Assembly (NCBI GenBank): GCA_905221615.1
Contig: CAJNDT010001225.1
Coordinates: 124,001-188,000 of the forward strand
DNA length: 64,000 nucleotides
From: Symbiodinium sp. CCMP2592
Lineage: Eukaryota > Sar > Dinophyceae > Suessiales > Symbiodiniaceae
Reading direction: 5' to 3'
The position numbers and the translations under genes were made by a program. This document shows positions 2,723-43,124 of this stretch, one piece after another. The stretch's first letter is position 1. The number at the start of each line of letters is the position of its first letter. The notes below the pieces were generated by a model. It had not been told where the DNA came from, searched no databases, and saw nothing but the letters and a program-made list of their open reading frames with translations.

Positions 2723-3609
2723 TCAATGCAGGAACGAATTTCTCAACAATGGCAGGCGCATTGGCAACTCCGTCTTAAGCCGTATATCCCAGTGCGGGTG
2801 GTTGCTAGCCAAGGCATCAGCTGCACAGCATGCATCAGCAAATATCACGAAGGCGAAGCCGCGGCAACGATTGTCTAGGTCGGTCTTGACCTGCGTTTCT
2901 TTGTATACATTGCTCTTCGTTGTTAGCGAAGGGGCTTGGGGTTTAGGGTGCAGGGCAAACGAGAGACGAATGCTGGCACAACTACATAATTATGTTCGTA
3001 CCTCACAGAAGGCACCGGTATGTCAGAAGACGCGCCTGAATGCGCGAGACATACCCGAAGGACTTGAAGTAGGCCAAGATCTCGTTCTCCAGCAACAAGG
3101 GGTCCCCCGACTTTGGAAGATTCCGGACCACCAGGACATTTGCATCACGCTCTTGCTGTACATGCTGGAAGATACACTGGGAGCCATTTTTGCAGTGGCC
3201 CTTCTGGAACCACACGCAAATGCGTTTCTCTGAGGCAGCATCTCTGGTAACGGTTTGCACAGCAGGATGCTTGAATGGGCATCCGACACGGTAGCAGGCA
3301 GCTCCAAAGTGACAGTCAGGTGGCAGAACTTCAGACGGGTCATGTTCCACAGGGTGCGAGAATCCTGGGCTCTTGTTCAACTTACCACAATAGGGAATTT
3401 TAGGTAAAAAAACATACTGCTTCTTTATTAAAGCTCTATTCCTTAACAAGAACCCAGAATCGGCAGTCCGGTCTGTGGCACTTAACACCAAACCGGCAAG
3501 GTATCGGCTCGACCCCTTCCGGCGAATGGCCCAAAGGATGTTCGAACCAACAGTCGAGACGAGCGCATGCGGAGCCGAATCGGCACTGCACCTTGCCGGC
3601 CTGCGACAT
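2723..3609 (-). CDS. CCCH zinc-finger plus RRM RNA-binding protein, three exons
   Basis: Exons are 3609-3462, 3364-3036 and 2890-2723, giving a 214-residue protein. Fingers in order: CRFGSACARLDCWFEH (CX5CX4CX3H), CRFGVKCHRPDCRFSH, CHFGAACYRVGCPFKH and CVWFQKGHCKNGSQCIFQH (CX7CX5CX3H). An RRM follows, with RNP2 VLVVRNLP and RNP1 RGFAFVIF. Finger 2 and the RRM are each broken in the genomic frame and become intact only when introns are removed. Intron 1 (3461-3365) starts GA, ends AG before G, and is a 93-bp TIR element flanked by GATT. Intron 2 (3035-2891) is GC-AG, also followed by G, and is not an evident element. Phases are 1 and 0. The start ATG opens directly onto finger 1. Likely a post-transcriptional mRNA-binding regulator; the target is unknown. 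A second 3' exon after residue 200 cannot be excluded. Confidence 0.85.
3365..3457 (-). mobile_element. Introner element CA4 forming intron 1 of the CCCH-RRM gene
   Basis: A 93-bp element with inverted ends CTGGGCTCTTGTT / AACAAGAACCCAG, flanked by the 4-bp duplication AATC (GATT in the gene sense). The intron is exactly one TSD copy plus the element: it starts GA, ends AG, and the exon resumes with G. Removal rejoins the second CCCH finger in frame. I see no second copy of this family in the window. Confidence 0.9.
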
Positions 3610-3936
3610 GCTAGATGCTTTCAGGACAATGCCTTTTCACTCCAAGGGTAACCAATTTAAGGATGCAGCGGATTCAGGGTGTAGTGTTGAAGAAGCTTTT
3701 TGCGCGATATGCTGGGGCCAGATGGTCTGTCTGCCTTGTACGCTGAGGGCTCACCAAAGAGCCAGGCCCCTACGATGGCAAATGCTCCGGCATCTGGTGA
3801 AGTTACAACAGACTCGTTGCATAATGAACCCTACAGTTTAGGCCGTATCTAGGCACCGGAACTTCTGAACCAGGCGTTAAAAAGCTCGAGTTGGAGACAC
3901 TCAGCCTCAAACCCAACTCTTAAACCCCTAAACCGT

Positions 3937-3955
3937 CTCTGAGCCAAAAGGGCTG
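3937..3955 (-). other. Possible spliced-leader relic
   Basis: On the minus strand the sequence reads AGCCCTTTTGGCTCAGAG, against AGCCATTTTGGCTCAAG at the end of the known dinoflagellate spliced leader: one substitution and one inserted base. It lies about 330 bases upstream of the CCCH-RRM start on the same strand. It could be a relic of a reinserted processed mRNA or chance; the match is imperfect. Confidence 0.35.
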
Positions 3956-4570
3956 ACTCTGCAAGGATCGAGCTTGACTTCGCAGGCAAGACTGGGCGGG
4001 GTAAGGTTTAGGCTTGAGGGGCTTTGGGCTCTTTGGACTTAAGCTTCAAGGTCTATGTCGGGGTCGGAGAGATGCTAAGGGCGTATGGGGTTTAGGGTTT
4101 AGGGTCTACGGTTCAGGGTTGAGTTTTGAAGGTTTAGGGTTTGGGATGTAGGGCTTTATCACCTGAAAGAAAAGCGGGCCTTCTGAAACATGCTGCCTGA
4201 ACTTGATACTGGGGCCCGAGTCATTAAACAGGTGTCTTGCAAACTGCAGTGGCCAAGTAGTTATCATACGTTTACGCATTTCGGCAACAGCTTCTAAGCC
4301 TGGGGTCTGTCTCAAACTACCATGACCTATCGCGTTTTCCGACGTCCACAGGAACTCCATGTTCGGGCTTGGGTTAGGATTTGACAGTGCTATACCCTGA
4401 ACAAATTTTGATACATAAAACACCACTACGAGCATTTATTCAAGTACTTGGATCCTCACAACTTACCCGCCCTTAGAACCAGAATAGAACTCAAATTCTT
4501 ACTAATCCCCTTAAGCCTTAAGTTGTATTATAAGGAAAATGAAACACAATTCCTATGAGCAGTAAATCCA

Positions 4571-4697
4571 AGGGTAAAAGGAGGGACCCTTAATAAGGAC
4601 CCCTAGGTATATACCCTTAATATAGCTATTACATACCCATTATATAGCCCATCATAGGGTAGGGTCTCTATTAAAGCTCCCTCCTTTTCCCCTTTGA
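4571..4697. mobile_element. TIR element, family N
   Basis: Long inverted ends AAAAGGAGGGACCCTTAAT / ATTAAAGCTCCCTCCTTTT enclose ACCCCTAGGTATATACCC and a TATA-rich middle. Other copies: about 8755-8882 and 48150-48278. Confidence 0.75.
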
Positions 4698-4702
4698 GTA
4701 AA

Positions 4703-4799
4703 CTATACTGAACTTAGAACCCTAGCAAAAACTATAATTAGCTGTTTCTTAGGGATTATAATAAGCAAAAATTAAAAACTATTTCTAAGTACCCCTAAG
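4703..4799. mobile_element. CT...AG TIR element, introner family CA1, TSD TAAA
   Basis: Same family as 42629-42727. Flanked exactly by TAAA on both sides. It lies six bases from the end of the family N element, an insertion hot spot or a close double hit. Confidence 0.8.
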
Positions 4800-5119
4800 T
4801 AAAGACAATAAGCCTCAACTCACCAGGCGCCTCCTCCAAAGCTCCGGTGCCGTTGAAGATGTGATTGGGCGGCGCATCTGTCCGAGATTTTGGGCCAAGA
4901 TCTTCGGGCTTAGGGCTTTGGGCTTGTGTAGGTTTTCGATGTTAGGGCTTTTCGTAGGGCTTTGGGCTTGTGTAGGTTTTGATTTTAGGGCTTTTGGGGG
5001 GTTTAGGGTTCAATGGGCGCTGGGCTTGTCGGGCTTCTAGGATGTAGGGTTTAGGCTGGGATTGCTCCCGAGACAATCAATGCCAGTTGCGGTAGTCGTA
5101 CATGGGGCAAGCTCGATCA

Positions 5120-5224
5120 TGGGAGTTTCCGAAAAATGTGGGACCCTAATATAGTTCTCTAGATAGTAGGATCCTTATTATAACGACCCCAAAACCAGGT
5201 ACCCCTAATTATCGGAAACTCCCA
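5120..5224. mobile_element. TGGG...CCCA TIR element, family A, TSD CA
   Basis: Ends TGGGAGTTTCCGA / TCGGAAACTCCCA, with internal GGGACCCTAATATAG and GGATCCTTATTATAA. Flanked by CA on both sides, giving a 2-bp duplication. Confidence 0.8.
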
Positions 5225-5235
5225 CAGCTTCAGCT

Positions 5236-5460
5236 TTAAGGCTTTAAGCGCAAACCGGAATAAAAACCCAAACCGGCCGCCGGCGCGCCTTCGACTTGTA
5301 CAGCTACTCTTGGGCTGTCCTTGCCAGGGGCATTCCAAGCGGCCTTACTTCTCCGTTTGGATGTAAGTTGAAGAACAAGTAGACGTTCAGATGTCGGCAC
5401 ATATTCCAGGCCCGTCACCCCACCATTCCTCTCAGTGCTGCTGTCCCAACGGTTTAGCAA
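5236..5460 (-). CDS. Possible exon of an unrecognised protein
   Basis: An open minus-strand frame of 74 codons with coding-like composition, including GGVTGLEYVPTSERLLVLQL and a lysine/arginine-rich continuation. The hydrophobic pattern recalls a beta-propeller strand, but no motif is decisive. It abuts a family A element. No partner exon or splice border could be fixed, so treat it as an exon-like island. Confidence 0.3.
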   Translation of the reverse strand: MLNRWDSSTERNGGVTGLEYVPTSERLLVLQLTSKRRSKAAWNAPGKDSPRVAVQVEGAPAAGLGFYSGLRLKP

Positions 5461-5699
5461 CGATAGCTAGCCTGTAAGCATAACCCTGAACCTTAAACCC
5501 TTAACCGCCGAAGCCCTACTTTAAGCCGATAAGTGCCTGATGAAGACCCAGATGTTAGGGTTTAGCGGGTTTAGGCTTAGACATGGAAATGCAAACTTTA
5601 TCGAGAGTCCGGGGACTGTGTCCACAAAACGTGCTGGGAAGGACATTAAGACATCTGTTTAGCACCCTGAGTCATGGCAGCTCAAGGCGTGAGGAAATT

Positions 5700-5850
5700 C
5701 TGTGATATCTACTTTATATAGGTCGATGGTCTCTTTAGATGGGGTTTCTGCTTTAAGGGGCTGTATATAGGGATCCTTATTCTGGGCTCCTCCAAGGATA
5801 AGAGATCGTCGTCGTCGTCCTCGAAGGAGTACCTTTTCTTCAGATTGGCG
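5700..5850 (-). CDS. Possible acidic exon
   Basis: One minus frame reads NLKKRYSFEDDDDDLLSLEE, a lysine/acidic pattern typical of coding DNA, while a second frame is also open. It may belong to the same unknown gene as 5236-5460. No boundaries are assignable. Confidence 0.2.
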
Positions 5851-6545
5851 GCTCAGGGTGTAATAAAAACCCAACAGCCCGACATGCCTTCACTAACTCA
5901 AGGGGTAGACTTTGAACAAAACAATGCCCTCTTACTAGAATGTGGCGCATATGCCACACCATGAGGGTAAATATGCACTAGCAGCATGGACAAAGATGTT
6001 TATTCTCTTGTTGTCATGGACGACACTATACAAGGCAATTGGGAGCCTTTGGACCCGAAGTGTTACGGGTGTAGGGCTTCGGTGAAGCTTTGCATGGGCA
6101 CAGAAGTGACAATTCGTAATTCCATACAATATAGGGGCCTTAATAACTAAAATGAACAGGCTCTGCGGGTATAGTGTAGTGTAGTTACTCTAAGGAACCT
6201 TGAGGACTAACATTGGTAACTACTGTTATGGACTAAATCCTGCATGACCCTAAGGACTCTAAACTATGGGAACTATGGTATCTTGCTTATAAAGGGTAAT
6301 GCAGGATTTTGTCCATCAGCAGTATTTCTGAGCTTTCATGGGGATTTGACTGATGAGGACTCGTTTGAGAAGACTCAAATCTGGATACGATCGAACATGG
6401 TCTTGAGAGGGCCTCCTTGGATTACATACCAGCAACCCCACGGTATCCCCTGCGGTCTTTAGCATTGGGTGTTCTAGGGTAAAGCTGCGGTTGCGTGCAA
6501 AGGGCAGGTACAGAGAGGGGTTTGGGTTTCCAGGCTGACGGGTTT

Positions 6546-6725
6546 GGCGGACAGGTGGTATACCCTAAACCTCAAACAGCAAGCCCTAAACCCTAAACCT
6601 GAAACCCTAAACCTCAAACCCTAAAGCCCCAAACCTGGAACCCTAAAACCCTAAACCTTGAACCCTAAAGCCCTAAACCTTGAACCCTAAATTACTAAAA
6701 CCCTAAACCTTGAACCCTAAACCGT
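6546..6725 (+). repeat. Degenerate CCCTAAAC interstitial telomere-like array
   Basis: About twenty imperfect units alternating CCCTAAACC, CCTTGAACC and CCTCAAACC. Similar arrays are scattered through the window in both orientations. Confidence 0.8.
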
Positions 6726-6834
6726 TTACAGATCCTACCAGGGCGCTGCGTGTGAGCTGAGTTCCGCGATGTGCCGCGCAGGAGCTCGGGGGGCACCGAC
6801 AGCGCTGCATCCATGGGCTCTGACGAAGTCAATA

Positions 6835-6941
6835 CTACCTTAACCTACCAAAACCTACTTTTCTGTAGGGTCCCTATAAATTTCATATTAGGGTTTATAA
6901 TAAGAACCCTGCAAAAAAGTAGGGTTTGTTAGTTTAAGGTA
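6835..6941. mobile_element. TIR element, family E
   Basis: Ends TACCTTAACCTACCAAAACC and its inverse, with internal TAGGGTCCCTATAAATTTC. Other copies: 26269-26372, 34665-34769, 34868-34970, 38829-38926 and 48829-48933. A half copy is at 47250-47325 and a diverged one at 59704-59784. Confidence 0.75.
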
Positions 6942-7712
6942 AGGATTTATGGCTGAGGGGTTTGGGGCTTCAATCCCAAGCACTCAGCAAAGTTCTGAAT
7001 TGTTGTAAGCTGATTGCATCAGTCGCAATGATACTACTAGCAGATTTGTCAGGGCTGACGCAAAGTCTAAAACAACAAGCCCAAACCAGGACCAGGTGTG
7101 GTTTTTCAAGTCGGACTGCATTTGGGCCTTAGAAGTAAAGTCGTCCCCATAAGTCCGACATCCTTGGCTGTTATGCTTGGGACTCAAAATCAACCGGGCT
7201 CCTAGTCGAAGTAGTTGTTTCGGGGTTTAGGGTTCAGGGTGAGTTTTCTCAGAGTCGAGGCCTAGAGACCTACCCCTACGCTGTACAGAAGCGATTGGCT
7301 TCGGCACGACAAAATTTGCTGCCTACAGCGTTTTTCCACAAGAGGCGATCGACATCCCAAACCTGATGCATGCGTAGCACATTTACATACCTAAGCCCCG
7401 TACAAATTACCCCATAAACTCAGAACCCTGCAGTGCCAGTGCCCTACAGAAAAGAGAGGCTTCGGGTTAAGCATGTGCCCGGGACCCAACAGCCATATCA
7501 TAGGGCCCCACAAAAGCACATAAGCAAAAATTAGGATAGGGATGTCCCATATAAACCCCCTTAAAAGGAAGCCCCATAAACATAGGGATATCTCCATAAA
7601 ATGCTTATGCTTATGTGCTTTTCGGGTCCCTAATATCAGACCCTTTTGTAGCCGTCCAACGGTCTGGAGCTCTAGGGCCCCCCATGCAAGACCTAAATTT
7701 GAAAAGCCCGAG

Positions 7713-7857
7713 AACCTAAAACCCTAAACCCTAAACCCTAAACCCCCAAACCCCTAAACCCTAACCCTAAACCCCTAAACCCTAACCCTAAACCCCTCTA
7801 AACCCTAACCCTAAACCCGTAAACCCTAAACCCCTCAACCCCTAAACCCTAAACCTT
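7713..7857 (+). repeat. CCCTAAA interstitial telomere-like array
   Basis: Alternating CCCTAAA and CCCCTAAA units, about eighteen in total. Confidence 0.85.
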
Positions 7858-8754
7858 GGGTGCTGGCTATGAGCCCCAAGCAAGTCCCACCACTCCCTTG
7901 CAACGCCCTCTGGACTCCTCTTAAGCCGTTTCAAAAACAGGAACCCCAAGACTTGGGGTTAGAGCCACGGTTAAGGGTTGAGAGTTTAGGGTTTAAGTCA
8001 CAGGGACCCTTAAAGGGGGGGGGGTCCCGTATTATAGATATTCAGGCCCCCGACCCAACTCCCCCCTCCCCCCCTAAGCGTCCTTATGATTATAGACTTA
8101 TAGAGTAGCCAACGTCTCTTCTGACCCTTTCACGCTGCAGCCCTACAAACCCCTTATCGGCCCATGTAAAAATCTAAAACCTGCTGATATCACAGAATAA
8201 GACCAAAAACAACCTCCTCAATCCCTAATGATTAATAGTATGATCGTCCTTGGGCGTCAAGAAAGTCACCCTAAACCCTAAACCTGAAGAGAGAACACCC
8301 GAAAGGTACCTCAGCACCGACAGACGCAAGACCCTTGAAGTTAGGGTTTAGGCTTTGGGCTTCCATAAACCCTATACCTAGGCAAAAAAATACATATCCA
8401 GAATCCGCAAAAAGTCCAAACTGTAAGCCCAAAACCATGCAACAAATGTGGACTGATAAGTGAACCCCATCCCTTCATAGGGATTATACTGCCGTCGGGG
8501 GCACCGGAAAAAAACTCTGAAGTGACCTGGCCTCTCCCAAAGGATCTCGCATCCCAAGTATCTACAAAGCAGAAGCTACAACTTCAGAGTTAGAATCAAG
8601 AGAAGATACTAACATGGCTTTCGATCGTATACCCCATTAGAGTCCCACGCGCTTCTTGGGACCGTGACGGCATCTTGATGCGTTTGGATACGTAAGCCGC
8701 GCAGCCAGAAGATTTAAACTTACTCTGAGGCAAGACCCTGCCTAATTCCTAAAC

Positions 8755-8882
8755 TAAAAGGGGAAAAAGGAGGGACAATTAACAAGGACCCCTAGGTATA
8801 TACCCTTAATATAGCCATTATATTCCATTATATAGCCTGTTATAGGGTAGGGGTCCCCCTTAAGGTCCCTCCTTTTCCCTTT
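8755..8882. mobile_element. TIR element, family N
   Basis: Second copy of the 4571-4697 family, with the same AAAGGAGGGAC ends and ACCCCTAGGTATATACCC core. Confidence 0.7.
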
Positions 8883-8883
8883 G

Positions 8884-9208: not shown

Positions 9209-9297
9209 ACTGAGCGTCCGACAACAGATAGAAACCCAACGAAAGCAAAGAGGTACCTACTCAGAACCCAGTGCTGCCTGCAGGTTCAACAGGAATA

Positions 9298-9400
9298 TGG
9301 GAGTTTCCGAAATTTGGGGTACCTTATTTAGGGGTCCTTATAATAAGGATCCTAGTATTTAGGGTACCATTTTAGGGTCCCCTACTTTCGGAAACTCCCA
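9298..9400. mobile_element. TIR element, family A, TSD TA
   Basis: TGGGAGTTTCCGA ends inverted at the right, flanked by TA on both sides. Confidence 0.8.
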
Positions 9401-12454: not shown

Positions 12455-12555
12455 CTGTTGATGATATAAATCCTGCACTACTTTAAGGGCCCTAAACTAT
12501 GGGATTTTTGGTACATTCCTTATTATGGGTAATGCAGCATTTATATCATCAACCG
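12455..12555. mobile_element. TA-flanked TIR element, family B
   Basis: Ends CTGTTGATGATATAAATCC / ATTTATATCATCAACCG, flanked by TA on both sides. Other copies: 15676-15776, 18861-18961, 22570-22648 (shortened), 30952-31039, 38297-38397, 43856-43956 and a diverged one at 6223-6322. Confidence 0.8.
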
Positions 12556-15675: not shown

Positions 15676-15776
15676 AGGTTGATGATATAAATCCTGCATT
15701 ACCTTAAGGACCCTGAACTATGGGAATTATGGTATATTCCTTACAAAGGGTAATGCAGGATTTCTATCATCAACCG
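15676..15776. mobile_element. TA-flanked TIR element, family B, absent from the paralogous site
   Basis: Sits between AACTCATAC-TA and TA-TCAACCTGAA downstream of membrane paralogue 1. The matching place downstream of paralogue 2 (about 19645-19665) reads AACTCATACTGCCAACCTGA with no element. Confidence 0.85.
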
Positions 15777-16211: not shown

Positions 16212-18125
16212 TCAAGGGTCCCTGACCTGAGTGAAGAACAAGCTTCCATGCGCATACCGTTTAACCGCGAGCTGCTGTGTGCGAGAAGAAAGGAAAGCCT
16301 CAAACTCCATGATGTCGTGCTCCATGTAGCTTAAGCCAATCCTGTCGAGGTAAGCTACCTCCGCGGTCTGTGAAGCCCCGAGGCCACTGATCTTTCGAGC
16401 CTCTTGCCTTGCCCTTTCGCTGGCGAGCAGTTCCCAAGGCATCTTGCCTTCGCCCTTTCTGTTCTCAAAGTAAAAAATGTGAAGTACCTGGTGCAATTCG
16501 GCCGCCCGGTCCACGTTCTGCTTCCATTCCTCAAACCATTGACACCCCCAGGGGGCTCTGTACTGATTCTCGACGCAGCGGACTTCGGCATCCTGCAAAG
16601 CCTCGGCAAGTTCCTGCTCCCACTCGATGTCTCCTTGATGCTGCTTTATCAGCAGCCGCTGGCCCATTGCTTCGGCATCCGCTCTTTTGAAGGCAAGTGT
16701 CTGGTCATAGTTTTGGCACTCATCGGCACAGATTTCCACCACACTGAGGTATGTAGAGGCCGGTACAGGGCCATAGATTTGATGGCACCAGCACTTGCCA
16801 GAGGTCTCCGGGACGTCTGCATGTCGACCCAGGCCAGAAGCTGTGTCTGTCAAGAAGACACAAGCAAGTGAGAAGGTGTCCTCCTCAGTAACGCTTGAAA
16901 CTGCTTTGTCCCAAAGGTCGCTGTACTTACCAGGGAAAGATACAACGCAGTCAACAGCACTCTGGCTAATGTGTCCTGGGAAAGCCACACGGGCGGAAGC
17001 CAAGCCAAACCCTGACAACTCGGCAAGCTTCTGCAAAGTTTCCAGATTCATCGGCACGGTGCCCACCATGCCACTGAGCAAAAGCACGTTGAAGACTTGG
17101 AAGGACACGTCAAGCGTCACCAGTGTTCGTGGGGTTCTCCCGCTTTTTCCCATGAATGCGGACAGGCCAACAAAACTCAAAGCAGGGCCTAGCGGAACCA
17201 AGCAAGCGTTTGCGTAAAGGAGGCATGCCGTCCACCAAATGGAATCATGACTTCTTGATTGCCCCATAGCGCTGCTGGCTGCATGGCAGAGTGCCCAACA
17301 CTGGGTTGCCAAGACTGCAAAGCAGCAGCCAAAAAAAACGAGTACGCTTGGAATACTGAGTTTGCTCGGGCAAGTGGCCTGGCACATCCCATGGACGAAG
17401 CTCAGCATTAACACAGCAAGCGAACAAACACCAAGTGTTGTGAGAACGCCACACCATCGGGCAGTCCGGTGCCAGCCGAGAGCGCGTAGCTTGAGGATCG
17501 TCATATACAATTGCAGGATGTTGCAAAGGACCTCCCACCAAACCATTGATGCAAACTTTGCCAGCTCTCCCTGGATGAAGTCATCATTCCAAAGGTGCTC
17601 CAAGCTCTCATCGAACAGGGGCAGCGCCAAGCAACACATCGTGATGAAACTTAGAAGCTGCAGCGGGTTGCTTCTAGAGAACCGGTCAAGCCTGTGAACA
17701 AACATGCAGAGCCCAAAGCCAGTCACGATGGGTCGACAGATAGCATCGCAAACCAGATGGAAATCGACACGTGTCTCTGAAGACTTCTGATAATGAATCT
17801 TCTCCTCTTTCTCAAACCGGTCCCAGACGGCTCTCTCTGTGAAAGGAAGGTTCAAGGTGATACGGGCTAAGGTGTAGAAGGCCAGCGCCACCTTGGCTCG
17901 CCAACGCCATCTGGGCTGCTGTTCCAGATCCTCCAAATCCTTTCTCATGTCTGCCAAAGTGGTTCGTTTTCTCGAGGGCCGGGCAGAGGCCTCGTCACCT
18001 GAAGCCTGGACCAGCTGTACGCCTTGCTCGTTGCCACGTCTTAAAGCCAGCTCCACACCTTCCTGCCTCGAGGCGTGTTCGGTGGGCATCGCTCTGCTGC
18101 AGCCGGAGGAGGGTCTCAGAATCAC
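16212..18125 (-). CDS. Multi-pass membrane protein, paralogue 1
   Basis: An uninterrupted 637-codon frame; the family is unrecognised. The N-terminal 75 or so residues are charged, then about seven or eight hydrophobic segments span roughly residues 80-370 (for example VLVFFGCCFAVLATQCWALC and VSFQVFNVLLLSGMVGTV). The C-terminal 240 residues are soluble, with a charged, probably helical stretch rich in E, Q, R and W. The annotated ATG may not be the true start: paralogue 2 begins at the position of internal Met-13 (MPTEHAS). The gene has no intron at the site where paralogue 2 carries an introner (single TTTC at 16456-16459). Paralogue 2 lies about 1.8 kb upstream on the same strand; the C-terminal half is almost identical between the two while the N-terminal half has diverged. 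A receptor, channel or transporter role cannot be chosen. Confidence 0.8.
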   Translation of the reverse strand: MILRPSSGCSRAMPTEHASRQEGVELALRRGNEQGVQLVQASGDEASARPSRKRTTLADMRKDLEDLEQQPRWRWRAKVALAFYTLARITLNLPFTERAVWDRFEKEEKIHYQKSSETRVDFHLVCDAICRPIVTGFGLCMFVHRLDRFSRSNPLQLLSFITMCCLALPLFDESLEHLWNDDFIQGELAKFASMVWWEVLCNILQLYMTILKLRALGWHRTARWCGVLTTLGVCSLAVLMLSFVHGMCQATCPSKLSIPSVLVFFGCCFAVLATQCWALCHAASSAMGQSRSHDSIWWTACLLYANACLVPLGPALSFVGLSAFMGKSGRTPRTLVTLDVSFQVFNVLLLSGMVGTVPMNLETLQKLAELSGFGLASARVAFPGHISQSAVDCVVSFPGKYSDLWDKAVSSVTEEDTFSLACVFLTDTASGLGRHADVPETSGKCWCHQIYGPVPASTYLSVVEICADECQNYDQTLAFKRADAEAMGQRLLIKQHQGDIEWEQELAEALQDAEVRCVENQYRAPWGCQWFEEWKQNVDRAAELHQVLHIFYFENRKGEGKMPWELLASERARQEARKISGLGASQTAEVAYLDRIGLSYMEHDIMEFEAFLSSRTQQLAVKRYAHGSLFFTQVRDP

Positions 18126-18744
18126 CCTATCGCCGTCATCACGCTATCAGAAAAGTGATTGCAGACATACTATTCCTAATATTACTCGAACCACAGACAT
18201 CAGGAGCCTTAGCATAGCCGGTTTGAAATAGCGTGAAGTCTTGCATCGTGAGCAGTTCAGGTCGAGGCGGGTGGCATCCTAAGCGCCGACACTCGGACTA
18301 CACCATAGCCCCGTAACCCCAGGCCCCAAACCTCCCAGCCCCCAACGCGCCAAGTAATCCAAAAAACCCTACATCGCTCAATGCTGCGAAATTCGCAAGA
18401 TTCCTGCATCAGAATTTGGTTACTGTGGGGCATGAGGATGGAGTTTTGCGATTCTTATAAGGAACCCGAATGAAGGCCCAAGGTTTCTTAATCAGGTTCC
18501 TCCATTACATTAACCGACCCTTAGCCCTGATAGACGTGGAGTATTGAAGGGGAACTCTGACTCTTGAAGCGAAGGTCAAAACTGGGTTGGCCTTTAAACA
18601 CCCTGAAAAATATTTATATATAGGGTCCCTTATAAACCCAAACGGAAATAAACAAGTCCCAAAATCCAACCTAGGAAAGGTTCACAAAAACCTGACGACT
18701 TCGAGTCTCTTCTCACAGGGCTTTTAACATGGAGCCTTGGTTTT

Positions 18745-18964
18745 CTAGGATGCCCAGTAACCTAGGAACAAAAAGGGCTCCCTTGTTGGTATTGGGTAAC
18801 TTTATAAGGAATCTAGGACTACAAAAAGGGAATAAGGGTACTGCAATACTGGGCATCCTACTGTTGATGATATAAATCCTGCATTACCCATGATAAGGAA
18901 TATACCATTATTCCCATAGTTTAGGGTCCTTAAGGTAATGCAGGATTTATATCATCAGCCGTAG
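18745..18964. mobile_element. CT...AG element CA5 split by a nested family B element, TSD TTTT
   Basis: CA5 starts CTAGGATGCCCAG at 18745. Its terminal CATCCTAG is interrupted after TA by a family B element (18861-18961), which duplicated that TA; the final G is at 18964. TTTT flanks both ends of the reconstituted CA5 (18741-18744 and 18965-18968). This fixes the order: CA5 first, family B second. Confidence 0.9.
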
Positions 18965-19893: not shown

Positions 19894-21749
19894 CTACGAG
19901 CGAGAAGAAAGAAGGAAGGCTTGAAACTCCGTGATATCGTGCTCCACATAGCTTAAGCCAATCCTGTCGAGGTAAGCTACCTCCGCAGTCTGCGAAACGC
20001 CGAGGCCACTGTTCTTTCGAGCCTCTTGCCTTGCCCTTTCGCTGGCGAGCAGTTCCCAAGGCATCTTGCCTTCGCCCTTTCCTGAGCTATTAAGTAACCA
20101 GGGAGAAAAAAGTATAAACTTTAATTTCATAAGGGTTCCTTTGAGAAAAAAAGTATTAAAGTATGGTACTCCAAAGCCCAGTTTCTGTTCTCAAAGTAGA
20201 AGATGTGAAGTACTTGGTGCAATTCGGCCGCCCGGTCCACGTTCTGCTTCCATTCCTCAAACCATTGACACCCCCAGGGGGCCCTGTATTGATTCTCGAC
20301 GCAGCGGACTTCGGCATCTTGCAAAGCCTCTGCAAGCTCCTGCTCCCACTCGATGTCTCCTTGATGCTGCTTTATCAGCAGCCGCTGGCCCATTGCTTCG
20401 GCATCCGCTCTTTTGAAGGCAAGTGTCCGGTCATAGTTTTGGGACTCGTCGGCACAGATTTCCACCACACTGAGGTATGTAGAGGCCGGTACAGGGCCAT
20501 AGATTTGATGGCACCAGCACTTGCCAGAGGTCTCCGGGACGTCTGCATGTCGACCCAAGCCAGAAGCTGTGTCTGTCAAGAAGACACAAGCAAGTGAGAA
20601 GGTGTCCTCCTCGGTAACGCTTGAAACTGCTTTGTCCCAAAGGTCGCTGTACTTGCCAGGGAAGGATACAACGCAGTCCTTCGCGCTCTGGCTAATGTGT
20701 CCTGGGAAAGCCACACGGGCGGAAGCCAAGCCAAACCCTGACAACTCGGCAAGCTTCTGCAAAGTTTCCAGATTCATCGGCACGGTGCCCACCATGCCAC
20801 TGAGCAAAAGCACATTGAAGACTTGGAAGGACACGTCAAGCGTCACCAGTGTCCGCGGGAATTCCGTATATTGACAGAAAGCCACAAAGCTGACAAAACT
20901 CCAAACTGGGCCTAGAGGGACCAGGCAAGCGTTTGCATACAGGAGACATGCCGTCCACCAAATGGGATCGTGACTTCTTGCTTGCCCCATAGCGCTGCTT
21001 GCTGCGCGGCATAGCGCCCAACACTGGATTGCCAAGACTGCAAAGGAGCAGCCAAAACAAGCGAATGTGCTTAGAAGCATGATTGTGCTGCGGACGATCA
21101 TTACCAATAAGGAGCTATAGAGGTGGGTCAGCAAGAGAACTGCAAGCGACGACACGCCAAGTGTTGTGAGAACGACGCAGGACCGGGCTGTCCGATGCCA
21201 GCCGAGAGCTCGCAGCTTGAGGATCGTCATATACACCTGCAGGACGTTGCAAAGGACCTCCCACACAAGGAAGGGTACCCCGCGCGGCAGGCTCGCCCGA
21301 AGTAAGATTCTGAATATGTGCTCCAGGATATCGTCGCCCAGGGGCATCGTGAGGCAACACATCGTGATTAAGCTCCACAGGTGCAGCGTGTTGCTTCTAG
21401 AGAACCGGTCCATCCTGCGGACAAATATGTAGAGCCCAAAGCCAGTCACGATGGGTCGAAAGATGGCGTCGCATACCTCGTGCAAATCTAAGGTACGGTA
21501 TCTTGATGCGTATAAAAGGATGCTAGCGATATGTGCCAAGGTGTAGAAGGCCAGCGTCACCTTTGCTCGCCAAAGCCATCGGGGCTTCTGTTCCAGATCC
21601 TCCAAATCCTGTCTCATTTCTGCCAGAGTGCTTCTTCTTCTCGAGGGGTGCGCAAAAGCCTCGTCATTTGGGGTTTGGACAAGCATCTGCCCGGCTCGTC
21701 TTAAGGCCAGCTCGACACTATCGTTCCTGGAGGCGTGGGCGGTGGGCAT
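19894..21749 (-). CDS. Multi-pass membrane protein, paralogue 2, split by an introner
   Basis: Exons 21749-20186 and 20081-19894 encode 583 residues. The order is the same as in paralogue 1: charged N-terminus, seven or eight membrane segments, and a soluble tail with EEWKQNVDRAAELHQVLHIF. Without splicing the frame ends soon after FYFENR. Removing 20185-20082 restores ENR-KGEGKMPWELLAS exactly as in paralogue 1. The intron starts GA, ends AG and is followed by G. The product stops at SSRS, because a base change created TAG where paralogue 1 continues for some 20 more residues, so the C-terminus is shorter. Function unknown. Confidence 0.8.
20082..20181 (-). mobile_element. Introner element CA3 forming the intron of membrane paralogue 2
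   Basis: A 100-bp element reading CTGGGCTTTGGAGTACC...AATAGCTCAG in the gene sense, flanked by GAAA duplicated (TTTC on the plus strand at 20078-20081 and 20182-20185). The intron is one GAAA copy plus the element. Paralogue 1 has a single GAAA and no element. Confidence 0.92.
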
Positions 21750-22220
21750 GGCTCTGCCGCAGCCGGAGGAGGTCTAAGAATCACCTTTTCGTTGTGATCT
21801 CCCTATCAGAACGCTGATGCAAAATATCTTCTACTCGAGCCATTGGCGTGACTGGCCTTAGCATAAGGCGATGTCAGATCATGTGCACTCCTAAAAGTGG
21901 AATTTACGACGGAGGCATCCTTGCGGGGCCTTGGTAGAGCTCAGGAATGTATGCACTATGAAGTATGTAACGTCTCAGGCCCGGAAGGAGGTCCCCAAAA
22001 TCCATAACACGGACGGTCATTTGGGGCCTAATTCCCGTGGGCACCAACGCTCATCAGCTATGGACCGCAAGCGCCCTACTATCGAGAGCATCAGGTTTTA
22101 GGCAACTCTGCTGAGGTTGGGGTTGTAAGAATCATATCTATATTTGCCTGACTTGACCTTTAAACTGTTCATCCTACCTGCGACATCCCCAAACCTCTTA
22201 AGTAGCCGATCTTTCATTCA

Positions 22221-25906: not shown

Positions 25907-25928
25907 AATATTCAAGCACCTACATTAC

Positions 25929-27465: not shown

Positions 27466-27730
27466 CTACCGAGAGCCGCCGCTGACAGCGGCACGTGTCA
27501 GCTGCCATGACGCTGCAATCAGGTGCGCCGCTTTTTCCGTTGCAGGGTCTCCCGGTGGGTGGTTGTCAAAATTATGGTGACTTTTTGGGTACCCGAAATA
27601 TTAGGTGCCGTACCATAATAAGGACCCAAAAAGGGACCCTAATTTTGACAACCACCCCGGTCAACCAAGCCTCTCCACTGACGGCTTGGCCCTTGAGAGG
27701 CGGTTCTTCACCGGAAGGCCTCACCAACGT
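27466..27730 (-). pseudogene. Coding-like stretch interrupted by a family D element
   Basis: Minus-strand codons read LVRPSGEEPPLKGQAVSGEA before the family D element (27657-27556). On its far side one frame continues as GRPCNGKSGAPDCSVMAADT if the element and one CCGG copy are removed. A second frame after the element (DPATEKAAHLIAASWQLTRA) is also open, so the true reading is unresolved. No motif is recognised. Confidence 0.3.
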
Positions 27731-27947: not shown

Positions 27948-28276
27948 CTTGCGAGAGATGCTGTTGACCAAGGAGCGGAAATCAGAGCAAACGAGTGTTC
28001 TCAGCTGCTCTATCTTCCAGCTTCCCAGAGTGAACTCTAAGATACCCAGTAACCTAAGAATAAAAAGGCCTCTCTTTTTGGTATTGGGTAACTTTAAAAG
28101 GAACCTAGGACTACACAAAGGGAATAAGGGTACTACTGGGCATCCTAGGTGAGCTTGTACTGACCCCTGTTGAGGCAGAGGGCTTAGGATTCAGGGTCTG
28201 GGGTTTAAGGACGAGCAAAAACCTGGCAAGGGACTCATCGAACATCGAACAGACCCTCGAATCGTTCCACATCTAA
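27948..28276 (+). CDS. Exon pair of an unrecognised protein, split by introner CA5
   Basis: Exon 1 (about 27948-28029) reads ARDAVDQGAEIRANECSQLL then YLPASQ. Exon 2 from 28149 continues SELVLTPVEAEGLGF and stays open to a stop at 28274. The intervening 28030-28148 begins GTGA and ends AG before GTGA, and is a CA5 element between duplicated GTGA. The join is phase 1. Neither a start codon nor a domain was found, and the last 25 codons overlap telomere-like words, so exon 2 may end near 28190. Confidence 0.5.
28034..28148 (+). mobile_element. Introner element CA5 in the 28-kb exon pair, TSD GTGA
   Basis: Ends ACTCTAAGATACCCAG (slightly extended) and CTGGGCATCCTAG, flanked by GTGA on both sides; yields a GT-AG intron followed by G. 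Other copies: 18745-18964, 28829-28941, 33792-33903 and 40099-40211. Confidence 0.8.
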
Positions 28277-36143: not shown

Positions 36144-36241
36144 CTATACTGAACTTAGAACCCTAGCACAAACTATAATTCTAGCTGTCTCTTAAGGATT
36201 ATAATAACCACAAATTTAAACCTATTTCTAAGTACCCTAAG
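36144..36241. mobile_element. CT...AG TIR element, family CA1, inside a 34-bp direct repeat
   Basis: CTATACTGAACTTAGAAC...TTCTAAGTACCCTAAG. The flanks are imperfect 34-bp copies of each other (36109-36142 and 36241-36274, sharing GGCAAATCAG, CTCCGGTG and CAAGACTT) rather than a 4-bp duplication. Confidence 0.75.
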
Positions 36242-36850: not shown

Positions 36851-36904
36851 GGGCTTTTGGGTTTGCCAGGTCCTAAACTCTAAACCCAAAACTCTAAACC
36901 CCTA

Positions 36905-37017
36905 CAGTAGAAGCCAGAAAGTTGGAACATGGGTTTGGGAGGATTAGTGCTAGGATTCCCTCTACTTTACCTTAAAGGGATGAGGATAATGATGTTCCAA
37001 CTTTCTGGCTTCTGCTG
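36905..37017. mobile_element. TA-flanked TIR element, family K
   Basis: CAGTAGAAGCCAGAAAGTTG and its inverse, ending TTCTGGCTTCTGCTG, flanked by TA. Confidence 0.8.
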
Positions 37018-37131
37018 TAATCGTGACAGGGAGCATCTTGAAGATGAGGTTCTCGAGGATGTGCGCATCCTCAGAAATTTTCAGCTTGACACCCTCAGGG
37101 TTTAGGGTTTAGGGTTCCCTCATGAATCGGA

Positions 37132-37230
37132 GGCCTCAAAAGGTGGGATGAAGGTAGGTGGGATATTCCCAAATGAGAGTCCTTATAAAAGGGATCCTTG
37201 ATCCTACTCACATGTATCCCACCTTTTGAG
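37132..37230. mobile_element. TIR element, family T
   Basis: GAGGCCTCAAAAGGTGGGAT and its inverse (ATCCCACCTTTTGAGGCCTC) enclose a short AT/GGATCC core; single copy. Confidence 0.7.
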
Positions 37231-37745
37231 GCCTCCGGATGAAGTCTAACTAGAATATTGTTGAGCCGGCGTGCTGTAGTGTAAACAAACAAAGAAATAG
37301 ATAACTACATTTATTTACATATATATATATATATATATATTCTACTCGGTTCTATTCCATTTTATATAGATGAAACGGGGGCAATAACTACATACGAATC
37401 ATTCCGACCCCCGAAAGCAAAGCGTATAAGCTTTAAACCTCAACAAGCAAAAGAAGAGAGCTCAGGTCCTTGTTTTCTCACAGCGAATCCTAATGCCTAA
37501 ACCCCAGACCAAAAAGGCCCGAAATCTGGGTGCCTTTATCATAGTTCGAGTAGGGATGTGGGGTATGTTCTACTAGGACTATATTCGACTAGAAGGGGAT
37601 AGTGCTACCCAATATTGCGACCCTGCGTTAACAAGCTTCCTAAACCTTTAACTAACTCTCTTCTTCAACAACCGGGACCCAAAAAGATCAAACTTTCCAA
37701 GATAGAGCTAAGCTGCATCGTGAACTCTTTTATGTCCCCGGAGCC

Positions 37746-37919
37746 TCAATCCTCAACGCCCAACCACCTCCAAGGACCGAACACAAATTCTTCGCAGACG
37801 CCATGAAAGAATTTCTGAAAGAAACCCATCAGGGAAGCTTGCAACTCCCCTTGTCTCAGAGGCTCGGTAGGCATGTTGCCGTTGGGCCGCCACTCGTCAT
37901 GGCGCATGCCATTGAGCAC
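37746..37919 (-). CDS. Terminal exon of an unrecognised protein
   Basis: After a CAG acceptor followed by G, a minus frame of 57 codons reads VLNGMRHDEWRPNGNMPTEP, then LRQGELQASLMGFFQKFFHG, and ends EEFVFGPWRWLGVED and stop. Composition is clearly coding-like. Upstream on this strand is a TTTAGGG-type array (37930-38035), which would be intronic. No upstream exon was found. Confidence 0.5.
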   Translation of the reverse strand: MLNGMRHDEWRPNGNMPTEPLRQGELQASLMGFFQKFFHGVCEEFVFGPWRWLGVED

Positions 37920-37929
37920 CTGAACTGTT

Positions 37930-38035
37930 TCCCTAAACCCTAAACCTTATACCCTAAACCCTAAACCCTGTACCCTAAACCCTATACCCTAAACCCTATA
38001 CCCCAAACGCTAAACCCTATACCCCAAACCCTAAC
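37930..38035 (+). repeat. CCCTAAACCCTATAC array
   Basis: Alternating CCCTAAA and CCCTATA units directly upstream (minus sense) of the acceptor of the 37919 exon. Confidence 0.8.
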
Positions 38036-38296
38036 CTCTACGGATTGGACTTCAGGGGTCAGGGTCTCACAACAACCCTAAGCCCTGAACCCTCAACCCG
38101 ACCACCAAACCCCCAAACCTGTACAGTTACTTGCTGCCCCAATAAGCCACAGAAGCAAAAGGTTAGACTTTCCGATTCCTATTAAACTACATGAACCCAA
38201 AAAGCTTAAAGGTTGGGTATTGGGGATCTAAGATTAAGAAGGATCCTCAGTCTCTACAAGTTTGCACAGGGTGTTGTGATGTTTTGTGGTGCTCTA

Positions 38297-38397
38297 CTGT
38301 TGATGGTATAAGTCCTGCATTACCCATAAACAGGAATATACCATAATTCCCATAGTTTAGGGTCCTTAAGGTAATGCAGGATTTCTATCATCAACCG
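38297..38397. mobile_element. TIR element, family B, TSD TA
   Basis: CTGTTGATGGTATAAGTCC...TTTCTATCATCAACCG flanked by TA. Confidence 0.8.
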
Positions 38398-38680
38398 TAT
38401 CAGTTCACAAGGGTTTGTGGTAATTTTGGAAGTCTCTGATGGGAGGAGACAGAGCTCACAACGGTTCTGGGTACAGAGAGTGATTTTGAAGCGAAGCCGT
38501 GATGATTCACAAGCTACAAGGCCTCAGTCAAAGCTACAGTCTATCCCTTCACAGGCCCCTTGACACTTGAGCCTAAAGCCCTTTAGAACACGTGGCACTG
38601 CATACTGTGCAGTCTAGGAGTTAACGCCTTAGCCTTAGGGCCTTAGGACGAAGAGCCCAGTGCGCTATCAAACCAGAGGG

Positions 38681-38681
<1 letters not shown>

Positions 38682-38732
<51 letters not shown>

Positions 38733-38768
38733 TATGTGTATATATATATATATATGTGTATATATACA
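38682..38768. repeat. TA microsatellite
   Basis: TA dinucleotides with TGTA interruptions. A tRNA-like stretch borders it at 38615-38672 (minus). Confidence 0.9.
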
Positions 38769-38828
38769 TTAGGAAAACTGGAAGCACGCTCCGAACACAA
38801 GATGGCAAGCCTTACAACCTATACTTTT

Positions 38829-38926
38829 CCTGAACCTACCAAAACCTACTTTTTTGTAGGGTCCCTACCTATTAGGGTTTATAATCAGAACCTACAAAAA
38901 AGGTACGGTTTGGTAGTTTAAGGTAG
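38829..38926. mobile_element. TIR element, family E
   Basis: TGAACCTACCAAAACC and an inverse right end (GGTTTGGTAGTTTAAGGTA). Confidence 0.7.
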
Positions 38927-38939
38927 ACAAGCGGTTTAG

Positions 38940-39304
38940 GGATTGGGGTTTTGTGCCCCTTTCATAGATGCCCAACAGGCATTTCTCCAAGGCTTTCTCC
39001 TCGCCATACCGGATTGCCACTCGGATCGTTTTCGCCATTTCGGACTGCAAGCGTTCCGAATGCAGTATGAATGCATTCTGTGCTTTCTCAAGGGATTACA
39101 TTGTCCGAGCCATTCCTTTTCCGCGATCTTCGTGTTTTGTACCTGCTCATCCTTCTTTGAGCGCAAGCGGTCCACCACTTCTCGAGCTTTCGAACGGTAC
39201 CATTCTTCCGCTGGGTCCACGGACTCCACAGGCACATTGACGTTACGTTTCTGGCGATTGGCATCCTGAAGTTCTTTGGCTCGACAAGGAACGTCAGCCG
39301 ACAA
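38940..39304 (-). pseudogene. Charged coiled-coil-like protein fragment with a frame break
   Basis: The minus frame reads VESVDPAEEWYRSKAREVVD then RLRSKKDEQVQNTKIAEKEW. Near 39095 coding character moves to another frame (EKAQNAFILHSERLQSEMAK, then TIRVAIRYGEEKALEKCLLG) until about 38940. The two halves suit one helical, lysine/glutamate-rich protein with a 1- or 2-base indel or a very short intron between them. No family recognised. Confidence 0.5.
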
Positions 39305-39701
39305 ACATTAACTTCAGGGTCCCGAAACCCCAAACACCGAAATCCTGAACCCTAAGTTTGGGATAAGAAACATCACGAAACACTAACCACAAATTCCCCC
39401 AAAAGTTGGAAGCGGTCGGTGCCCTAGGGCTAAGAAGCATCACCAAACCCTAAGACGTACGGTCTGCCAAAGACCATCGCTGCGCCCTAAACCCCTTTAA
39501 CCCTGGAGCCCTCAAACCCAGAACTCTAAACCCTGAACCCTAAACCCTTTCAACCCTAGCACCCTCAACCCTAGAACCGAAAACCTTTGAACCCCATAGG
39601 CCCTAAACCCTGAACCCTCAAACCCAAGGGCCCTGATACCTGAAGCGTTGAACTTTTAGAGCCCTCAACCATAGGAGCCCTAAACCCTAGAACCCTACAT
39701 T

Positions 39702-39820
39702 GATGGGAGGCCAAGGGGGTTTAAGATTCTTGGGGTAGGGATTCCTTAAAATGAACCCTATTCTGGGAACCCTAATCCCTACTAAACCCCCATAGGCTGA
39801 AACCCCTTTTTGGCCTCCAA
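39702..39820. mobile_element. TIR element, family O
   Basis: TGGGAGGCCAA(G/A)(A/G)GGGG... and its inverse CCCCTTTTTGGCCTCC. The inner GGGTAGGGATTCCTTAA / GGAACCCTAATCCCTAC arms also pair. Second copy 50594-50709. Confidence 0.75.
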
Positions 39821-39907
39821 TGATACACCCCCCTAAAGCCTACACCAATCCTAGAACCGTGGCGGCTCGCAAACCTCAAAGCGTCAGACAATGATGCTCC
39901 ATGCTAA

Positions 39908-40045
39908 TGTCATAGGGATCCTAAGGGGTGTAGGGGGAGGGGGGGTAGGGGGCCTTAAGGTCCATAATAAGGACTAATAAGGCCTATTTAAGGAAATATA
40001 GTCCCCTACACCCCTCCCCCCTGCACCCCTAAGGATCCCTATGAA
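39908..40045. mobile_element. TIR element, family P, within a 14-bp direct repeat
   Basis: CATAGGGATCCTAAGGGGTG and its inverse; the arms are long and GGGGAGG/CCTCCCC rich. ATGCTCCATGCTAA occurs just outside both ends. Confidence 0.7.
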
Positions 40046-40098
40046 CAATGCTCCATGCTAAACTAGGTGTCGATTTCAACAATCCCCGAAATCCGTAT

Positions 40099-40211
40099 CT
40101 AGGATGCCCAGTAACCTAGGAATAGAAAGGGCTCCCTTTTTGGTATTGGGCACCTTTAAGGAGGAACCTAGGACGACAAAAAGGGAATACGGGTAATACT
40201 GGGCATCCTAG
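40099..40211. mobile_element. CT...AG element, family CA5, TSD GTAT/ATAT
   Basis: CTAGGATGCCCAG...CTGGGCATCCTAG; the flanks differ at one base. The core is slightly diverged from the other copies. Confidence 0.75.
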
Positions 40212-40679
40212 ATATTAAACAGAACAGCAAACTAAAACTGGTCTCGAATCGATACCTAGTGAAGCCTAGGAGTAAGCATGGAGGGATCCCTGTGAGCTTT
40301 TCTCTTTGAGCTAGCAACTCAGGGAGCCAGGAGGATCTAGTAGCTCTGATAGATTATTGAGGATAAAGGGCTTCAACATATTTGAAGGGACCCTGGTATC
40401 AACACAATATACCCACAGGGTGCATATAATATGGAACCCTCTGAGATAGTAGTAGGATCGTCTCGATAAGTGATAAGGGCCGCACTCCTTCAAGAAGGAT
40501 CTCCATTGCCTAAATCTCAAGGCCAGAATAACCTGAACCGACCTATTGTAGGGGCCGTAAAATTAGAATAGGGTTTTGGGGCCCATTATGCTATAAAAAA
40601 AGGAACCACCAAAGTAGAAAAGGTGAGTATAAAGGCTCCTATATCAACAAACTGAGATTCGGGCCCCCCGGTGTCTCCA

Positions 40680-40978
40680 ATCTCTCAGCCGCTCAAGCAC
40701 ATACTGCCGCGTTGTTGGGCCATAGGATGGATGTGCCTGAGACGACTCTCATGGAGCACAGGGGTCGGGGGTATAGACGGTTACAGCGATTCAGGACAAG
40801 GTTTTCTGGGGGATTTATCTGGCTTTTGTACGATAGAGGCCCAAGTAGGGGCCCTAGGAAGATCAACACAACCATCCGGATGTCTCTCCCTAAGAAGGCT
40901 CAGCTCATGTTATGTGTTGCGAGCAGGGTTCGTAGTATTCGAACGTTGAAAGATCCCTTTGGGTTAATGGAGGGATGA
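40680..40978 (+). CDS. Possible hypothetical exon
   Basis: The plus frame through MDVPETTLMEHRGRGYRRLQ and KINTTIRMSLPKKAQLMLCV stays open for nearly 100 codons with arginine-rich composition. Other frames are also partly open. Not recognised. Confidence 0.3.
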
Positions 40979-41165
40979 TGAGGGTGAGGGGTAGGTTGAG
41001 AGAACCCTAAACCCTAAACCCTGCTCTAGACTTTTGCCGCAGGGGACTCCCTGCTGTGTGCACTTTGGCACCTACGGTGCGCCTCGGCAACCAGGGCGAA
41101 TCCCTACGACTCGACGTAAAAGAGCCCATGAACTTAGGAATCACTTATTTGTTCCCTAAACCCTA

Positions 41166-41440
41166 AACCCTTATCAGTTTTTAAGCGTGATGAACTTAGT
41201 AAGTAGGTTATCTTAAACCCTTATCAGTTTTTTAAGGGTGATGAACTTAGTAAGTAGGTTATCTTAAACCCTTATCAGTTTTTAAGGGTGATGAACTTGG
41301 TAAGTAGGTTATCTTAAACCCTTATCAGTTTTTAAGGGTGATGAACTTAGTAAGTAGGTTATCTTAAACCCTTATCAGTTTTTAAGGGTGATGAACTTAG
41401 TAAGTAGGTTATCTTCCCTAAACCCTAAACCCTTATCAGC
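41166..41440 (+). repeat. 50-bp tandem repeat, about five units
   Basis: Unit: CTTAAACCCTTATCAGTTTT followed by TAAGGGTGATGAACTTAGTA and AGTAGGTTAT. Starts of the CCCTTATCAG word are at 41168, 41218, 41269, 41319, 41369 and 41430. The array ends at the stop codon of the RCC1 gene, so it is the 3' flank or 3' UTR. Confidence 0.9.
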
Positions 41441-41441
41441 T

Positions 41442-43124
41442 TTAAAAAATAATAACCTTATGTGATCGCTCGACAATGATCCCTGTCCATCCTGAGGGAT
41501 CTTTGAGCCCCCAGGTGACCACAGATCCATCACCTAGGATTGCAGCGAATGCTTCTCGAGAAGCTTGGATCTGCTGCACGTCTCGCAGATACTCCTGCAC
41601 TGCACTGCTGTCGCCACCATAATCAGCATGACCCCAGGTGACCACACTTCCATCGACCAGGAGTGCAGCAAATGCACGACTAGAAGCTTGGATCTGCCGC
41701 ACATTGGTCAGCTGATCCTGTACTGCAGTGCTGTTGCCACCGCAGTCGGCTTTGCCCCAGGTGACCACAGATCCATCGACTAGGAGTGCAGCAAACGCAA
41801 AGCAAGAAGCCTGGATCTGCTGCACATTCTTCAGCTGCTCCTGGACGGCACTGCTGTCGCTACCCCAGTCGGCTTTGCCCCAGGTGACCACAGCTCCATC
41901 ATCCAGGATTGCAGCAAAGGCATGAGCAGAAGCTTGGATCCGCTGCACATCTCGCAGCTGATCCGGTACCCCGCTGGTGTTGCTAGCATAGAAAAGCTTC
42001 CCCCAACTGACCACAGATCCATTGCCAAGGATTGCAGCGAATGCTCCTGCAGCAGCTTGGATCTGCCGCACATCTTGCAGCTGATCCCGTACCGCACTGC
42101 TGTCGCCACCATAGTTGGCATGACCCCAGCTGACCACAGATCCATCACCCAAGAGTGCAGCAAAGGCTTGATCAGCAGCTTGGATCTGCTGCACGTTCTT
42201 CAGCTGCTCCTGGATTTCTCGGCAGTCGCCACCATAGTTGGCATCACCCCAGGCGACCACAGATCCATCACCTAGGATTGCAGCGAATGCTTGCTGAGAA
42301 GCGTGGATCTGTTGCACGTCTTTTAGAGAATCCTTTACTGCACTGCTGTCGCCACCAGCATCAGCAGCACCCCAGGTGACCACAGATCCATCACCCCGGA
42401 GTGCTGCAAATGCACCAACCTGAGTTGTCCTTTTAAGCCCTTTGAAAACTATTTACAATTATGGTTCTCTACAGAATGCTAGGGGAAATTAAAAGAGAAC
42501 CCAAAGGACAACCCAGCAACAGAAGCTTGAATCTCCTTCACATTCTTCAACTCCTCCTGCACAGCACTGCTGTCGCCACCATAGTCGCCAGAGCCCCAGG
42601 TGACCACAGATCCATCGACTCGGAGTGCCTATACTGAACTTAGAACCCTAGCAACAATCATAATTTTAGCTGCTTCTTAGGAATTATAGAAGCCAAAAAT
42701 CAAAATGTATTTCTAAGTACGCCTAAGGTGCGGCAAAGGCAAAAGAAGCAGCCTGGATCTGCTGCACATTCTTCAGCTGCTCCTGTACGACACTGCCATC
42801 GCCACCAGAGAAGGCATCACCCCAGGTGACCACAGCTCCATCACTGAGGAGTGCGGCGAACGCATCCATTCCACCGGCTTGTCTGGTGGCTTTAATCAGG
42901 ACTTGGCTCACATGTAGGGTGAGCACATCTCCGCTCTTCAACTTCGCTTCTGTGATAGTTTTTGCTTCGTCAAGGACCTCTCCCGAAGAGTTCAGCAGCC
43001 TTCCTTTACCCGTGGCCAGAGCTCTTTGTGCACAATGTTTCAATGACTCAACAGATGCATGCGCCTCCACTTCCAATGACTCACTCCTTCCACTCAGCAG
43101 ATGCACGTGCAGACGAATCGGCAT
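41442..43124 (-). CDS. Ubiquitin-like domain plus ten-repeat RCC1-type protein, three exons
   Basis: Exons 43124-42732, 42628-42521 and 42419-41442 encode 492 residues. Residues 1-75 resemble a ubiquitin-like fold (start MPIRLHVHLLSGRSESLEVE; end LKSGDVLTLHV). From about residue 89 there are ten units of about 41 residues with the RCC1-type core AFAALLGDGSVVTWG followed by D.GGDSSAVQEQLKNVQQIQ, a repeat type common in dinoflagellate proteins. A 7-bladed propeller normally uses seven ~50-residue RCC1 units, so fold and partner are uncertain. Exon joins are phase 0 and preserve repeats 2 and 3 exactly. Both introns are introner elements (GC-AG and GT-AG, each followed by G). The unspliced frame stops just after ASFAFAA, so expression requires splicing. 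Possible roles (chromatin, GTPase regulation, ubiquitin adaptor) are inference only. Confidence 0.88.
42420..42516 (-). mobile_element. Introner element CA2 forming intron 2 of the RCC1-type gene
   Basis: A 97-bp element, CTGGGTTGTCCTTTGGG...TTAAAAGGACAACTCAG in the gene sense, between duplicated GTTG. The intron 42520-42420 is GT-AG and the exon resumes GTTGGTGCA, giving QAS-VGAFAA in repeat 3. A near-identical intergenic copy is at 9573-9670. Confidence 0.95.
42629..42727 (-). mobile_element. Introner element CA1 forming intron 1 of the RCC1-type gene
   Basis: A 99-bp element, CTTAGGCGTACTTAGAAAT...AGTTCAGTATAG in the gene sense, between duplicated GCAC. The intron 42731-42629 is GC-AG and the exon resumes GCACTCCGAG, restoring FAFAALRVDGSVVTWG in repeat 2. 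Six relatives are in the window. Confidence 0.95.

Follow-up and report, generated by a model that had tools for sequence, protein, structure and literature searches.

In Symbiodinium microadriaticum, introners carry terminal inverted repeats (TIRs) and are flanked by a 4-bp target-site duplication (TSD); the 3' splice site lies in the element and the 5' splice site comes from the TSD (PMC9860276, Fig. 2B legend). Introner elements are also reported in Suessiales genomes (PMC10522408, PMC11114475), and Roy et al. 2023, a large-scale study of dinoflagellate introners, attributed 12,253 introns of Polarella glacialis to recent insertion, according to PMC11453091. Introns of the GC-AG or GA-AG kind are given there as 25-74% in Symbiodiniaceae. 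Here we analysed 64,000 nucleotides of Symbiodinium sp. CCMP2592 (contig CAJNDT010001225.1, positions 124,001 to 188,000; hereafter the window), in which short elements with CT...AG ends interrupt genes. An earlier sequence-only reading of the window had proposed that the AG of an intron comes from the element, and its donor and the G after it from the duplicated target.

The window elements are like the S. microadriaticum introners in their duplication and their inverted repeats, and would be so in their splice-site scheme (PMC9860276). The likeness is one of build, and the two hosts probably belong to the same genus. Some introners of Micromonas and Aureococcus also have duplications and inverted repeats (PMC7789003, PMC9860276), a likeness that is drawn from their descriptions. 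In the illustrated Aureococcus example, in contrast, both splice sites lie in the element and the duplication is 8 bp long (PMC9860276, Fig. 2F). The elements of Amoebophrya A25 and A120 share with those of the window inverted repeats, direct repeats of 3-5 nt at the exon-intron borders, a transposon-like spread and the lack of a transposase inside (PMC7789003). Their inverted repeats, however, begin with TTA (A25) or TAT (A120), unlike the CT...AG ends seen here. In addition, Amoebophrya introns in general are described as more than 60% non-GT-AG with few GC-AG or GA-AG (PMC7789003), whereas all seven coding insertions described below fit G...AG|G. Taken together, the published precedent (PMC9860276) and the GC-AG and GA-AG introns of Symbiodiniaceae (PMC11453091) would favour an introner origin for the window elements. 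The sections of PMC9860276 available to us contain no comparison of the first duplicated base between coding and non-coding copies.

Results

Window positions 1-60000 were read, and a script scanned the whole window for duplication-flanked inverted-repeat elements. The CT...AG families with 4-bp duplications found in the window are D18 (~98 bp), E (112 bp), F1 (97 bp), G (93 bp), H (100 bp) and I (101 bp). With a length of 93-113 bp, TIRs and a target duplication, these elements match the description of miniature inverted-repeat transposable elements (MITEs); the inverted repeat of D18 is imperfect (8/14 positions). We consider it highly probable (about 0.9) that the CT...AG elements are introners, that is, short gene-less DNA-transposon-like elements with inverted-repeat ends and 4-bp target duplications.

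Four of the CT...AG elements, all with exact 4-bp duplications, lie in the coding sequence of three minus-strand genes. Removal of each element together with one duplicate restores the frames of the three host genes, and the four sense duplications all begin with G.

3361 to 3461, minus strand: element G (3365-3457, 93 bp) with its duplications; CTGGGTTCTTGT ends; AATC, sense GATT; interrupts a CCCH zinc finger
2891 to 3035, minus strand: GC...AG|G intron in the same CCCH-RRM gene as element G, placed by hand to complete the RRM
20078 to 20185, minus strand: element H (20082-20181, 100 bp) with its duplications; TTTC, sense GAAA
42416 to 42520, minus strand: element F1 (42420-42516, 97 bp) with its duplications; CAAC, sense GTTG; RCC1-repeat frame restored
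42625 to 42731, minus strand: D18-family element (42629-42727, 99 bp) with its duplications; GTGC, sense GCAC; RCC1-repeat frame restored
41445 to 43130, minus strand: host gene with a ubiquitin-like domain and RCC1 repeats, a single open frame after removal of both elements

In the CCCH-RRM gene, the Pfam zf-CCCH_2 match improves from E 9.6e-4 before healing of the frame to 7.7e-12 after it, and its best stretch (residues 37-54) spans the join. The GC...AG intron at 2891-3035 was removed in the same step as element G; once it is removed, RRM_1 is matched across the join with E 4.9e-9. For element H, the tandem paralogue at 16215-18143 provides the empty site, with the same peptide across it. 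The other coding cases were judged by restored frames and domains. The long paralogous frames at 16215-18143 and 20130-21773 stand in tandem, are identical at 472 of 613 aligned positions and gave no Pfam match.

The first base of the duplication differs between coding and non-coding copies. All seven coding insertions, namely the four above and three found elsewhere in the genome, are G-first, whereas in the 26 non-coding copies G comes first at 11 of the 52 strand-ends (Fisher p = 9e-5). At a coding G frequency of 0.28, the chance of 7/7 G is p = 1.3e-4. Both values include the four cases of the original observation; with the three independent coding cases taken by themselves, p is 0.02 against the coding G frequency and 0.014 by Fisher's test. 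The donors among the seven coding insertions would be GA (four), GC (two) and GT (one). The 26 non-coding copies form a hand-typed list with exact duplications, 19 from D18 and 7 from others. The list excludes any D18 copy that lacks an exact duplication or whose tail match is below 7/10, any E or H copy lacking exact duplications, and, by position, 25928, 45153 and 2714 of locus L005.

The three further coding cases come from the genome sequence (1,098,105,373 bases in 5383 contigs). The first 24 bases of D18 have 1384 exact matches forward and 1301 in reverse (2685 together), and a reversed-pattern control has 0. Genome-wide repetition was seen for D18 with this 24-mer and, with longer patterns, for E and for a GGG...CCC family; the copy test covered these three families. 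We sampled 50 D18 copies, consisting of the first 45 genome copies in list order (5 + 40 loci) and five exact window copies. Flanks were given a codon-usage score trained on 65 long open frames, with codons touching the duplication left out, and a copy was called coding when both sides were coding in one frame with a score above 4.

By this measure 4/50 D18 copies are coding (scores 8.2, 6.3, 5.9 and 4.3) and 46 are not clearly coding. The four are the window copy at 42629 and three of the 45 further genome copies, all G-first, at loci L078 (sense GACA), L001 (GCTA) and L003 (GAAG). At L001, the Pfam domain TMEM144 continues across the join (E 3.5e-25). The same holds for Ion_trans at L078 (E 5.9e-6), where 26.1 bits stand narrowly above the cut-off of 25; L003 has no Pfam match. 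A further locus, L090, was rejected as genic, its 138-codon open frame being without a coding score. Among random non-coding points of the window (n = 2000), 99.5% score below ~3.5 and the maximum is 7.05; the stretches left out of this background were picked by eye. In fetched sequence, 3/20 copies of CT...AG families are coding, and none of the 49 scored copies (of 50) from families without a terminal AG exceeds 4. The best of the latter, a GGG...CCC copy, reaches 2.7. For six of the families that lack a terminal AG, a duplication length of 2 was assumed.

The sequence-only reading had counted five genic G-first insertions. Four of them stand with their frames restored, and the fifth, with the duplication GTGA, is not supported. 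Its only candidate is an E-family copy at 28037-28148, whose four letters do not abut the element and whose flanks score +4.1 on the left and -3.0 on the right, so that it was rejected as genic. A script search of the window for CT...AG ends directly bordered by GTGA or TCAC, at spacings of 50-400 bases, returned none.

Discussion

Our best reading of these sequences, covered by the same high probability, is that the intron consists of one duplicate and the element, with G(A/C/T) as donor and AG|G as acceptor. A short mobile element would insert and duplicate its 4-bp target. The spliceosome would then excise the first duplicate and the element, using the GA, GC or GT that opens the duplicate as donor. 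The acceptor would be the AG at the element end, and the exon would resume with the G of the second duplicate, leaving the mRNA unchanged. Read in this register, a coding-exon insertion whose sense duplication does not begin with G could not yield a G...AG intron; we propose that such insertions are therefore removed by selection, whereas non-coding copies would retain any duplication. This scheme, with the AG coming from the element and both the donor and the next G from the duplication, is compatible with 7/7 coding insertions. Overall the pattern is real and well supported, and the mechanism is already published for the probable congener S. microadriaticum (PMC9860276). The observation made in the sequence-only reading is partly confirmed and its interpretation partly supported.

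Several points weigh against this reading. The coding cases number only seven, and four of these come from the original observation. Splicing and the splice register are inferred, and because any cut inside the duplication yields an identical mRNA, the register is not fixable from sequence alone. Single codon scores are not proof, since the random maximum of 7.05 exceeds three of the four coding D18 scores. For element G the codon score (2.2) chose the wrong strand, so that its coding status rests on the zinc-finger domain. In addition, G is not confined to genes as had been claimed. Genome-wide, D18 duplications are G-first in 567 (one strand) and 564 (opposite strand) of 2685 copies (~21%), and C-first in only 305 and 180, respectively; the sample placed 46/50 copies outside clearly coding sequence. 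In these 46 copies, position -1 is C in 13 and G in 1. Because the D18 excess persists in copies not scored coding, part of the G pattern would be a target preference. The excess of G over C looks like largely a preference of the D18 family, to which undetected insertions in untranslated RNA may contribute among the copies not scored coding.

The alternative that survives best extends this point: the initial G of the duplication would reflect the target preference of a transposase and not selection for splicing, in which case the elements would still be introns and the G would be little informative. The genome-wide excess of G over C in D18, including copies not scored coding, is what it would lead one to expect. 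We nevertheless regard it as improbable, since a G-first rate of 21% per strand is far below 7/7, three of the coding insertions are F1, G and H elements and not D18, and the E family has no excess (447 vs 446 at position -1). The GGG...CCC family likewise has little bias at this position (116 vs 92, p = 0.11). Selection on splicing and a biased landing could also act together. It is a doubtful suggestion, though a less remote one than the alternative just weighed, that an introner family has a target preference favouring usable donors: D18, found in exons, prefers G over C. E, with CT...AG ends like those of D18, has 0/7 scored copies coding. If such a preference were true across families, insertion-site choice itself would possibly be tuned toward harmless introns.

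The orientation of the elements bears on the same scheme. It had been proposed that either orientation can splice, which is unsupported here: relative to their genes, 4/4 coding D18 copies point the same way, too few to decide the matter or to prove a bias. Strand symmetry of the duplications proved unusable as a test of orientation bias, as the G-first counts of the two strands match (567, 564) and the C-first counts differ (305, 180; p = 1.5e-8).

It is very unlikely that the elements are retained in the transcripts and that recent insertions have turned the three window genes into pseudogenes. Element plus duplicate measure 97, 104, 101, 103, 103, 103 and 105 bp in the seven cases, so the frame is broken by length in 6/7, as disrupted genes would show. 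Against this, every host gene otherwise keeps long open stretches, two elements share one otherwise open gene (ubiquitin-RCC1), the adjoining GC-AG intron is required for the RRM, and random disruption would not be expected to give 7/7 G. The least credible alternative is an Amoebophrya-type introner, in which pairing of the inverted repeats, not G...AG signals, defines an intron with freely varying borders: when five elements were folded as RNA, four (F1, G, H and E) beat their shuffles (z -3.2, -3.9, -2.0 and -4.4), yet the coding D18 copy, inserted in the same way, barely does (z -1.0), 7/7 G-first duplications argue for ordinary splice signals, and the repeats published for Amoebophrya do not open with CT (PMC7789003).

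Introner splicing from the duplicated target remains the reading that we prefer, and the comparison amounts to an independent raw-sequence test of intron birth from mobile DNA. Whether an exon tolerates the insertion would be decided by the part that chance supplies, the landing site. The principle is already published; what is added here is that coding and non-coding copies of a single genome are compared directly, together with a hint that the landing preference of one family, D18, already favours usable donors.

Non-coding copies and other repeats in the window

The following CT...AG copies of the window were placed outside coding sequence or rejected as genic.

1489 to 1586, plus strand: D18-family copy, duplication CTTC, non-coding by score
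4703 to 4799, plus strand: D18-family copy, duplication TAAA, non-coding by score
9573 to 9670, plus strand: F1-family copy, duplication TTCA, non-coding by score
28829 to 28941, plus strand: E-family copy, duplication ATAT, non-coding by score
33792 to 33903, plus strand: E-family copy, duplication ACAA, non-coding by score
29969 to 30069, plus strand: I-family copy, duplication CCTC, non-coding by score and rejected as genic on it
28037 to 28148, plus strand: E-family copy, flanks GTGAACT/GTGAGCT, not flush; perhaps the claimed GTGA case

The intergenic duplications that had been listed for this window are largely borne out. Those at 1489, 4703, 9573, 28829 and 33792 are exact, and so is AAAT at 45153, where the element start is eroded. 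TTAC at 25928 is off by one (ATTA/TTAC). The diverged D18 copies at 25928 and 45153 were scored separately and are non-coding. The TTTT duplication at 18745 is split by a nested element: by eye, 18745-18964 holds an element of the TA-flanked family described below, near the right end of an E-family element with the outer duplication TTTT. At 36144-36241, a D18 copy lacks a 4-bp duplication and is flanked by an imperfect ~38 bp repeat (by eye), which suggests a later rearrangement.

CT...AG is one of several end classes, with 22 pairs vs 45 for GG...CC in a terminal-dinucleotide scan; such scans were swamped by AT-rich repeats and other families. Candidates at 46684 and 39921 were rejected as CT...AG families, their inverted repeats running further outward. 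When 4-bp repeats of any kind between coding flanks were scanned for blindly, 71,510 pairs came back, apparently nearly all noise, and the scan was dropped. Two GGG...CCC families with 4-bp duplications occur at 9299-9399, 27557-27657, 47347-47447 and other places; in fetched sequence, no scored copy of these families has a coding score above 4. Another family has GTTGATGATATAAATCC-like ends (12457-12553, 15678-15774, 38299-38395 and others) and TA on both sides in 5/8 listed copies. Its TA flanks recall those of Tc1/mariner-like elements, the superfamily to which we presume they point. By eye, a tandem array with a unit of ~50 bp containing CCTTATCAGTTTTTAAGGGTGATGAACTTAGTAAGTAGGTTATC occupies 41170-41420. 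Many CCCTAAA/TTTAGGG arrays, in both orientations, are interspersed across the window, which lies at least 120 kb from either contig end.

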